A DNA stretch of 64,000 bases. Origin: Methanomassiliicoccales archaeon LGM-RCC1 (GTDB lineage: Archaea > Thermoplasmatota > Thermoplasmata > Methanomassiliicoccales > Methanomethylophilaceae). Below are positions 25,845 through 28,214 of this stretch, in pieces. Each line of letters begins with the position of its first letter. Position 1 is the stretch's first letter. A program made the position numbers and the translations under genes. The stretch spans positions 1,488,001 through 1,552,000 of the forward strand of contig CP115555.1 in assembly GCA_030168575.1 (NCBI GenBank), read 5' to 3'. The notes beneath the pieces were generated by a model. That model searched no databases and was not told where the DNA came from. It was given only the letters and a program-made list of their open reading frames with translations.

Positions 25845-25904
25845 GTTGGATGCCACTATATGAGAGTCGCATAAAAGCATTTTGGTAGCTCACAGACGAC
25901 TGAA

Positions 25905-25965
25905 CATTGGAGAAAGACTCCCCACTTTGTAGGGAGTGGATGGGTGATGCACGCCCGGTCCTGAA
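25905..25965 (-). mobile_element. Possible IS200/IS605-type end (relic) with two hairpins
   Basis: The + strand has two adjacent hairpins: CTCCCCACTTTGTAGGGAG and, about 24 bases on, CCGGTC-CTGAA-GACCGG. On the minus strand the layout (a GGTCTTCAGGACC hairpin, then a TCACCCATCCACTCCC stretch and a closing hairpin) resembles right ends and omega-RNA scaffolds of IS605-type elements that I know from methanogens. No tnpA or tnpB remains nearby. An unrelated small RNA is also possible. The rest of the 25845-26142 gap is AT-rich promoter sequence. Confidence 0.25.
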
Positions 25966-26039
25966 GACCGGGTTAAGTGGTTTTGGATGCGTGTGCCTTT
26001 CGGCAAAAATCATATGCGCCTCCGCAATAAATAAACATT

Positions 26040-26060
26040 AAATTGTAATGATTGTAAATT
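26040..26060 (+). promoter_or_regulatory. Operator upstream of DUF6293 regulator gene (copy 1)
   Basis: AAATTGTAAT-N2-TTGTAA-ATT, partly palindromic (GTAAT...ATTAC continues to 26062). A nearly identical site, in opposite orientation, lies at 27024-27044 before the small-protein gene. Ten bases downstream is the TATA element. Confidence 0.55.
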
Positions 26061-26081: not shown

Positions 26082-26142
26082 ACCTGCAATGTATTCATAC
26101 AGATAGGGATGCGCTTTGCAGTCTGGTCGTAAAGAAAGGATA

Positions 26143-26955
26143 ATGGTGGCTTGTGTTACCTTTGAGACAACCAAGGTTACCGATCCGATCTTATTCTATG
26201 AGATCAACAGGGCCCACATCATACACTATGTGAGGGACCCGACCAGCCAGAGCAACAACGTGTATCAGGAATTCTACGACCGCGTCAACGAGATCATCAA
26301 AGAGAAGTCGCCGCGCCCCGTAGAGATCGTTGAACACGTTGAGAAGGTCTCGGATTTCTCCCTGATGCTGAAGACCGTTCTGGACATCATCCAGACCGAA
26401 CACTCCACGGCCTTGGAATCCGGAGAGGAATGCGAGATCTATGTCAATATATCGTCCGGTGGGCCTGAATATGCGGCGGCTTCCGCTATCGCATCCATGA
26501 TGGTCCCCGGCACGATTCCTTTCTCAGTAGGCACCAAGACCTACACTGTGAACGATGAGGGTGTTCGCCGCAACTATTTCATCGACGGCAAACCGGTTGG
26601 CCTCACGAAGGAAACGTACGATCCAAGACAGCTGCCGAGCTATTCGATACAGATCCCTGATGAGCGTCTCGTTCGCGGACTTAGGATACTAGATACCCGC
26701 AACAACGAAAGGCTCTCCGTCACCAGTGGAAAGATGATCGCTGCCTTGAAGGAAGCGGGTGTTTGGTACAGAGATACCGAAATAAAGGACCCCAACCGCA
26801 AATCAACTCAACGCCAAACCGAAGCGGTGTATTATCAGAGGGATTTCATCTGGAAGTGGCTTGAGAATGGATGGGTCGAAAAGGATGATCTCAATTCCAA
26901 GTACGTTCTGACCAAAGAAGGACGCAACATCATCAGCACCTTCTACACCGAGTGA
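26143..26955 (+). CDS. DUF6293 regulator: CARF-like sensor domain plus winged helix
   Basis: 270 residues from ATG 26143, preceded by AAAGGA. The N-terminal half has a Rossmann-like pattern (IMVACVTFET start, ISSGGPEYAAASAIASM phosphate-binding-like loop) of the kind seen in CARF proteins. The C-terminal half (about residues 195-270) looks like a winged helix, ending VEKDDLNSKYVLTKEGRNIISTF. This matches the archaeal HFX_2341-type regulators (DUF6293). CARF domains usually bind cyclic oligoadenylates, but no CRISPR-Cas genes are in this window. The shared operator suggests autoregulation. Confidence 0.78.
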   Translation: MVACVTFETTKVTDPILFYEINRAHIIHYVRDPTSQSNNVYQEFYDRVNEIIKEKSPRPVEIVEHVEKVSDFSLMLKTVLDIIQTEHSTALESGEECEIYVNISSGGPEYAAASAIASMMVPGTIPFSVGTKTYTVNDEGVRRNYFIDGKPVGLTKETYDPRQLPSYSIQIPDERLVRGLRILDTRNNERLSVTSGKMIAALKEAGVWYRDTEIKDPNRKSTQRQTEAVYYQRDFIWKWLENGWVEKDDLNSKYVLTKEGRNIISTFYTE

Positions 26956-27023
26956 TCCTCGCCTTTTTTCTTTCCTATTGTAGCATAGGCTCTGAACACG
27001 CTCTCAATATACAATAATAACAA

Positions 27024-27044
27024 CAATTACAACAATTACAATTT
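27024..27044 (-). promoter_or_regulatory. Operator upstream of the 48-aa gene (copy 2)
   Basis: Reverse complement reads AAATTGTAAT-N2-TTGTAA-TTG, matching 18 of 21 positions of the site at 26040-26060, in opposite orientation. It abuts the TATA element at 27047. Confidence 0.55.
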
Positions 27045-27046
27045 GA

Positions 27047-27057
27047 TGTTATTATAT
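27047..27057 (+). promoter_or_regulatory. TATA element of the 48-aa gene
   Basis: TGTTATTATAT, identical over 11 bases to the element at 26071 and about 60 bases before ATG 27108. Confidence 0.6.
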
Positions 27058-27107
27058 TTCTTCGCCGATATAGTAATTGCAGCCCCCAAGACTGCAGGTG
27101 AAAAAAA

Positions 27108-27254
27108 ATGAGTAGCTACAAGCAGACCCTACTGTCCCCTCTTCCTGCAAGCAGGATCAGAGAGCAGAACTACATGAAGTACGACAAATACGGATGCCGT
27201 ATCGATCGTAATAGGAACAGAGAGCTGAACACCATAGTGGCGTTCTTCGACTGA
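27108..27254 (+). CDS. Small basic protein (48 aa), probable DUF6293 regulon member
   Basis: ATG 27108 follows a ribosome-binding site (CAGGTG) with an 8-base A-rich spacer. The product is rich in Arg, Asn and Tyr (for example REQNYMKYDKYGC and RIDRNRNRELN), has a single cysteine, and no membrane helix. I recognise no family. The gene has a clear promoter and operator identical in type to that of the DUF6293 gene about 1 kb upstream, which argues that it is real and co-regulated. Confidence 0.6.
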   Translation: MSSYKQTLLSPLPASRIREQNYMKYDKYGCRIDRNRNRELNTIVAFFD

Positions 27255-27315
27255 TGATGGATGGATCAAACTTGTTAGAAACTTGCCCTAAAGGGCGATA
27301 AAGAGTTTTGGGGGA

Positions 27316-27336: not shown

Positions 27337-28035
27337 TCACTCTTTCTTGTTTTCCTTCTTTGCAGAATCCCAGACCTGGACAAACTCGACGCGGTCGACT
27401 CCGAAGGCTGCCCTCAGGTCGGCGACGATCTTGTACTTGGCGATTGCCCAGTTCTGGTCGAACTTGCAGACCTCGGCCTCGGTAACGACGACCTTGTCCG
27501 CCTCAACTGCAACGGCGAATCCCTCGGATGTTCCGGAGGTGAGCTCGATGATTGCGAGTGCCTTTGCCACGTTGTCGGTGATCTCCTCGGTGACTGTGAA
27601 GGTGTACTTCAGGTCGTGACCAGCGAGCTGGTTGTTGAAATCGACCTTTACACGTCCTGCTGCGACGGACATGACGACTCCGTTCCTGTTTCCAAGGGAG
27701 ACACTCATTCCGGGGTAGGGGTTGATCTCCTGCTTGTAGAATTCCTTGAGGGGGTGGAGCTCGATGAGCTTAGGGTTCCTTGCTCCAGCTGCATCCTCGC
27801 AGGGGATTGTGATTGTTGTCTCCTTTCCGATCTCTGCCGACTCGATTGCTGTTGCGAGTGCGGGGAAGAGTGTGTTGGATCCGAAGAGGTATGCCATAGG
27901 GGCGTAGGTGACCTTCTCGTTGAAGATTCCAGCTTCCTTGGCTGCGTCTGCGTCTGTTGTGTCGTACAGTCTCTCGTCAGCGTCGGCGAGATATGCCTTA
28001 TAGGAAAGGCGAACGAGCTTCTTTGCGTCTGCCAT
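27337..28035 (-). CDS. Long FKBP-type peptidyl-prolyl cis-trans isomerase
   Basis: 232 residues from ATG 28035 (MADAKKLVRLSYKAYL). It has the archaeal long-FKBP order: FKBP strands around YDTTDADAAKEAGIF, an inserted flap domain with PYPGMSVSLGNRNGVVMSV and VKVDFNNQLAGHDLKYTFTV, then a C-terminal extra domain of about 75 residues. It catalyses proline isomerisation and acts as a chaperone. Ends at a strong hairpin. Confidence 0.88.
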   Translation of the reverse strand: MADAKKLVRLSYKAYLADADERLYDTTDADAAKEAGIFNEKVTYAPMAYLFGSNTLFPALATAIESAEIGKETTITIPCEDAAGARNPKLIELHPLKEFYKQEINPYPGMSVSLGNRNGVVMSVAAGRVKVDFNNQLAGHDLKYTFTVTEEITDNVAKALAIIELTSGTSEGFAVAVEADKVVVTEAEVCKFDQNWAIAKYKIVADLRAAFGVDRVEFVQVWDSAKKENKKE

Positions 28036-28214
28036 GATGTTCACCGTGATTGGTATTAACTACCTGCGCCGATAGCGTCGCCTATTAAATAAGTATCGTA
28101 TAAGGAAAACATCCGCTATGGACATGCTGGATGCTCCCGATGCTTTATCAATAACAATATTGGATTCTGTGCAAAGCCATATAAACAAGGTGTCTATACC
28201 ATGCAATACTACCT

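Follow-up and report, generated by a model that had tools for sequence, protein, structure and literature searches.

The open reading frame (ORF) at 27108-27254 on the plus strand of the window, the whole stretch of 64,000 nucleotides from Methanomassiliicoccales archaeon LGM-RCC1 analysed here, encodes the product MSSYKQTLLSPLPASRIREQNYMKYDKYGCRIDRNRNRELNTIVAFFD. This locus raises the question of whether the ORF is a genuine gene, how its transcription is controlled and what its product does. A preliminary description had credited it with a promoter, an operator, a ribosome-binding site and a stop, and all of these were located in the window sequence. The features concerned are as follows.

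25900-26017, minus strand: candidate structured, C-rich RNA with covarying hairpins, divergent from the regulator gene.
26028-26057, minus strand: second locked operator with the TATA-like box GTTTATTTA, beside the regulator gene and leading into the RNA.
26116-26955, plus strand: gene for a CARF-winged-helix regulator of the HFX_2341/DUF6293 type, the 5' neighbour of the small gene.
27018-27041, plus strand: operator of three TWACA repeats with a 9-bp period, TAACAACAA-TTACAACAA-TTACAA, recognised from the sequence and a genome-wide pattern.
27048-27056, plus strand: TATA-type box GTTATTATA, the last repeat starting exactly 12 bp before it.
27077-27097, plus strand: leader hairpin with the arms TTGCAG and CTGCAG around the loop cccccaaga, about 20 nt after the TATA box.
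27097-27101, plus strand: ribosome-binding site GGTGA, read from the sequence and abutting the leader hairpin.
27108-27254, plus strand: gene for the small protein of 48 amino acids, with an ATG start and a TGA stop.
27255-27276, plus strand: conserved 3' flank that follows the stop immediately and contains GATGGATGGATC.
27337-28044, minus strand: gene for an FKBP-type protein, the 3' neighbour of the small gene.

As judged from sequence, ORF 27108-27254 is a genuine gene. A single-sequence search of 150 relatives (E ≤ 0.1) gave 30 matches, of which 26 fell in the 30 genomes of the genus, the window's own counted, while the four outside the genus (E 0.02-0.08) were weak and were discarded as chance. 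The 26 homologues were aligned (alignment A1) and used as the training set of a profile, which hence matches them by construction. When 102 genomes of the family were searched with this profile, 35 matches were obtained; five were weak (E 0.03-0.095) and likewise discarded, and the 30 strong ones (E ≤ 3.5e-12) were found in 28 of the 31 listed genus genomes and in G063 and G069, which carry copies of the G005 type. The matches in G161, G005, G063 and G069 were new beyond the 26 training sequences. Over 28 pairs of eight close sequences, pN/pS was 0.25, indicating purifying selection, and the variable columns numbered 14, 17 and 29 by codon position. Since there are homologues at the protein level and pN/pS is 0.25, a chance ORF was ruled out; the preliminary description had tied the fate of the gene to such conservation, and the gene stands. 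In G002, G001 and G028, the frame continues beyond the C-terminal motif (56, 167 and 521 codons), the stop having been lost or displaced (L039, L041 and L049).

The product is a basic protein from gut methanogens that is previously undescribed and forms a new family, again as read from its sequence. Searches with the window protein drew no match from Pfam (E ≤ 1), PADLOC or NCBIfam (both E ≤ 0.01), which bears out the earlier statement that it belongs to no family. When the 26 homologues were searched, the best values were E 0.036 in Pfam (one member, and none of the families fits), E 0.16 in PHROGs and E 5 among PDB sequences. No relative was detected in viral contigs by profile or by single protein, and none beside DUF6293 genes of other genera (best E 0.14 at 22 loci). 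The description of a distinct, basic protein under a promoter and an operator of its own was supported. Its single cysteine is present in the window protein as Cys30, but this residue occurs in just seven of the 26 aligned rows, the window's included.

The operator usually consists of two to four 9-bp repeats (TWACANNNN), and every one of the 30 small-gene promoters has its last TWACA starting exactly 12 bp ahead of GTWATTATA. TWACW repeats with a period of 9 bp occurred at least twice in 29 of these promoters and at least three times in 24, while 200 shuffled sets gave a mean of 0.36 promoters with at least two repeats and none with at least three; alternative periods from 6 to 15 bp were found in at most 4 of the 30. 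The locked pattern with a wider form of the TATA box gave 74 sites in 31 of 90 genomes against 0 in the reversed control. When a gap of 3-14 bp between repeat and box was permitted, 67 sites appeared in 30 of the 90 genomes (none in the reversed control), and all 67 were 30 bp long, corresponding to a gap of 7 bp. The spacing between repeats and box equalled 7 plus a multiple of 9 in 99 of 100 cases, at loci largely fetched by the pattern itself. The repeat pair TWACAANNNTWACA without the box was not enriched in the window's genome (5 sites versus 6 in the reversed control). Since the bare pair stays at control level, it is the TATA lock alone that gives specificity.

Rigid spacing next to the upstream side of the BRE is what one would expect of an activator that contacts TFB or TBP; a steric repressor would presumably not need it. 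EarA and Ptr2 are described as precedents for activators acting just upstream of the BRE (PMC5512572, in part). The operator appears to be of a new type, and no description of one of such a rigid kind was found in the literature surveyed.

Several other genes lie behind the operator; one representative per family was scanned, the others being assigned by eye, and for several sites no clear gene could be named. They comprise SIMPL genes (the window's genome, G007, G003, G012 and G014), PD-(D/E)XK genes (G013, G024, G003 and G009), DnaJ-like genes that match with E 8.6e-4, under Pfam's cut-off (G013, G024, G003 and twice in G012), genes for a HIRAN protein (G007), an SbcD-like metallophosphatase (G009) and an Eco57I-type methylase (G003), NYN and weak, sub-cut-off VWA genes (G017), and a zinc-ribbon transposase-like gene (weak in G012, by eye in G048). 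The SIMPL gene of G007 is divergent from the small gene, and an operator-bearing NYN-like gene of G048, identified by eye, is divergent from DUF6293. The small gene is the only near-universal operator-led member seen, the remainder being patchy. A gene for a TATA-binding-protein paralogue was also observed behind a locked operator in G003 (L125:1400-1972, minus strand; PF00352, E 1.4e-31).

The regulator encoded upstream matches PF19810 (E 9.1e-13) and PF22665 (E 3.6e-6) in Pfam and CARF3 (E 3.8e-100) in PADLOC. It has the N-terminal CARF domain and C-terminal winged helix of its family, as seen from Pfam, PADLOC, the AlphaFold2 model (pLDDT 83.3) and the match to Csa3; the best PDB match of the model was Csa3 with cA4 (6wxq, E 2.4e-6), with a TM score of only 0.33-0.42. 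DUF6293-type regulators are present in 72 of the 150 relatives. A second DUF6293 paralogue, 37% identical, lies in the window's genome outside the window (L062:2617-3486, minus strand), near a 5'-nucleotidase-like ORF identified by eye.

In 23 of the 26 genomes of A1, the regulator gene is followed on the same strand, after about 100-700 nt, by the small gene. The distance grows to 2.7 kb in G012 and 7.8 kb in G007; in G003, the remaining exception, the small gene is 190 bp from a contig end and the sole DUF6293 match is distant and partial. The regulator is presumed to bind the operator of the small gene. The suggested tie to a CARF-like sensor held in that the two genes are linked, but the statement that they are controlled together was inexact: the operator on the regulator side has its lock with a box on the minus strand, ahead of the divergent RNA, and not with a box of the regulator's own. 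Autoregulation was rejected as well, the inverted sites upstream of the regulator being those locked to the minus-strand box.

Another transcription factor might instead use the operator, with the DUF6293 neighbour as a bystander. Operators are present in G010 and G017, genomes 89% and 66% complete, with no DUF6293 match, and many DUF6293-bearing genomes outside the genus have no operator, both of which agree with this explanation. Against it, the operator lies beside or near DUF6293 genes in the genus (g1) and in g10 (G038 and G048) and beside a paralogue in G022, and the same three genus genomes, G010, G016 and G017, have neither a small-gene nor a DUF6293 match. On balance a bystander seems unlikely. 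At the G022 locus, L207:1020-1502 (minus strand), the distant DUF6293 paralogue is followed by a further operator-led ORF, repeating the layout of regulator plus target.

The nature of the signal, a cyclic oligoadenylate included, was approached through cas genes, the search in the window's genome being confined to Cas1 and Csm1. Among 41 genomes, 25 of them from the genus, none had a Csm1 above the cut-off, and G093 and G021 each gave a sub-threshold match; Cas1 was present in 14 of the 41 genomes and had no match in the window's. Because of these results a Csm-type CRISPR system of the window's genome is an unlikely source of the ligand, if there is one. The small gene as a CRISPR-associated ancillary gene was rejected on the lack of Cas1 and Csm1 matches there, and a CRISPR link of the circuit is not supported. 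In a 2014 survey, genomes with CARF proteins numbered 145, and just 9 of them lacked both cas1 and cas10 (PMC4012209), a figure that speaks for a general CRISPR tie of CARF proteins.

The small protein itself carries two conserved ends. In A1, the consensus is YxQT[LV][LI]xPxP at the N-terminus and N[ST]I[LIV]AFF[DK] at the C-terminus, with P11, N41 and I43 invariant in the 26 rows. The basic linker between them, rich in Arg and Asn, differs among the homologues in both length and sequence and shows the least conservation. AlphaFold2 gave a model with a pLDDT of 61 and one short helix (residues 44-47), too poor to support a fold search, and on account of these values the protein is probably disordered when alone. 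The two end motifs would favour protein docking over RNA binding.

The PIP-box consensus has Gln at position 1, an aliphatic residue at position 4 and aromatic residues at positions 7 and 8. In the small protein, position 1 is M, I, L, V or A in all 26 rows of A1, so that Gln is missing throughout, while position 4 is I in 26 of 26 and aromatics occupy position 7 in 26 and position 8 in 25. Fen1 tails (PF00867 matches) were readable at 18 of 30 loci, 15 of the genus and 3 from another genus. Those of the genus read KQ[RK]SLDxW[FM], with L at position 4 and W followed by F or M at the aromatic positions, and the three others end in [QR]RLDMF or MRLDMF. The tail of the small protein thus resembles the Fen1 tail of the genus save for the leading Gln. 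An HbYX-type tail, as known for the proteasome, was also considered and rejected: since the frames of G001, G002 and G028 extend past the motif, a free C-terminus does not appear to be needed.

The regulator ends in a similar pattern, raising the alternative of a feedback microprotein that would imitate the regulator's C-terminal tail, bind the regulator and damp or adjust its activity. The C-terminus NIISTFYTE of the regulator was the only one of the hydrophobic-x-x-aromatic-aromatic kind among 53 ORFs of the window (at least 120 amino acids, chosen greedily, unannotated), FY occurs near the C-terminus of all 28 regulators compared, and the small gene and the regulator are conserved as a pair. 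The shared pattern is short, however, and in the regulator I-x-x-F-Y lies within an ordinary helix of the winged helix (H267-275 in the model). Derivation of the small protein from a regulator domain was not supported, since hhalign gave E 0.27 with the alignment elsewhere. Feedback of this kind is rated rather improbable. Because the regulator shares the I-x-x-F-Y end, such an ending does not single out clamp binders; resemblance to Fen1 or to the regulator may each indicate the partner, and neither is proof.

The possibility that the small protein binds RNA, either the hairpin of its own leader or the C-rich RNA on the divergent side, draws on its basic Arg/Asn-rich middle and on the structured RNAs of the locus. 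Over 30 leaders the mean folding z-score was -2.4 (range -4.7 to +0.2), and the mean energy was -9.9 compared with -4.5 for the 53 window ORFs, the leaders being related and the p-value consequently optimistic. There are 19 distinct stems among the leaders, so the form of the hairpin is kept while its sequence changes. Own arms paired in 100% of cases and swapped arms in 46%; because arms had been selected for pairing, the first figure is uninformative, and it is the contrast with swapped arms and the energies that carry weight. The hairpin is weak or interrupted in G018, G022, G026 and G027. From the position of the TATA box, it would start close to the expected transcription start.

In the divergent RNA, which adjoins the small gene's locus behind its own locked operator, 7 pairs were changed on both sides in five genus sequences compared with 2.6 in shuffles, 2 of 500 of which reached 7; the structure tested was derived from the same five sequences. 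The RNA model R1, which matches these five by construction, found one independent copy, in G012 (E 0.002) next to a DUF6293 fragment, with a G015 match at E 0.099 uncounted. A second RNA clade has another set of hairpins with CCCATCC in a loop and an unfavourable RNAalifold covariation term (+1.81). Rfam gave nothing at E ≤ 1 on 25900-26017, and over the window only three tRNAs reached gathering scores. RNA binding by the small protein is opposed by the distribution of conservation, with its ends conserved and its basic linker least so, and by seven genomes (G001, G002, G006, G018, G025, G026 and G029) that carry the small gene and have neither a copy of the RNA model nor a repeat chain upstream of the regulator. 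In 8 of 9 genomes, the RNA and the mRNA of the small gene were complementary only to the extent expected by chance. We regard an RNA-binding partner as distinctly improbable.

Some further complementarities were observed. Unpaired GTGCATCACCCAT and CCCATCC-type stretches of the RNA could pair with ribosome-binding sites. Directly 3' of the small-gene stop, GATGGATGGATCAAACTTGTT (27255-27276) shows strong conservation across seven close genomes, and the stop is followed by GGATGG in G014, G015 and G023 as well. Pairing of this flank with the CCATCC in the divergent RNA is conceivable, at pairing lengths that are mostly at chance.

The earlier suggestion of an antitoxin-like role, or a toxin-antitoxin pair, which took up the small size and basic nature of the protein and the adjoining DNA-binding regulator, is very hard to maintain: the gene is a stand-alone unit with its own promoter, lies apart from the regulator in G007 and G012, has no PADLOC match and shows no toxin-like partner beside it, its neighbours in the window being the regulator and the FKBP-type gene rather than an adjacent, co-transcribed toxin.

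An effector role, also put forward in the preliminary description, is plausible. The reading that we prefer, with a probability of roughly 0.45, is that the small protein is a largely disordered adaptor and the core output of a CARF-winged-helix regulon. The neighbouring CARF-winged-helix protein would bind the repeats with its winged helices side by side in a row, touch TFB/TBP at the BRE and turn transcription on when its ligand is present; the ligand would probably be a nucleotide signal and probably not one from a type III CRISPR system. The small protein would then act stoichiometrically, docking on a cellular partner via its C-terminal I-x-x-F-F tail, and the N-terminal QT[LV][LI]xPxP may form a second contact. 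Since the tail resembles the clamp-binding Fen1 tail of the genus, the sliding clamp PCNA is ranked first among candidate partners, as a long shot nonetheless, and the regulator comes next, with odds that are if anything slightly lower. A doubtful extension of the adaptor reading is a CRISPR-independent second-messenger circuit in which a CARF-winged-helix activator, working through TATA-locked repeats, would have the two-motif microprotein and the C-rich RNA as outputs, the former re-targeting or restraining the clamp or the regulator and the latter acting on translation. Binding of the small protein to either of these partners, if real, would make it a signal-induced microprotein of archaea. 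With a rigid operator that can be scanned for in genomes and a small target gene that is near-universal, the DUF6293 family would become testable for its footprint, regulon and ligand.

HFX_2341 of Haloferax mediterranei and the window regulator are of the same family by PF19810 and PF22665. The former is reported to act on many genes, mostly as a repressor, and to be conserved in haloarchaea whether or not they have CRISPR (PMC11434293); when the main text of that report was searched by word, neither an operator nor a binding site came up, and no small-protein partner was seen. MM_0565 of Methanosarcina mazei is described as a dimeric CARF-winged-helix regulator, judged to be an activator of many genes, that prefers AT-rich promoter DNA; in the part of the report concerned the authors give no distinct binding motif (PMC7465815), whereas the window system shows a rigid repeat array. 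EarA of Methanococcus maripaludis has four short sites immediately upstream of the BRE and activates perhaps via TFB recruitment, according to part of PMC5512572; the window promoter is alike in design, and the same part describes no small-protein output for EarA. Csa3 of Saccharolobus (PDB 6wxq and 2wte) shares the CARF and winged-helix fold with the window regulator. Csa3 is tied to CRISPR, whereas neither Csm1 nor Cas1 is matched in the window's genome. A precedent for a small archaeal clamp-binding protein is TIP, which inhibits PCNA in Thermococcales, and its likeness to the small protein of the window is a functional analogy only.
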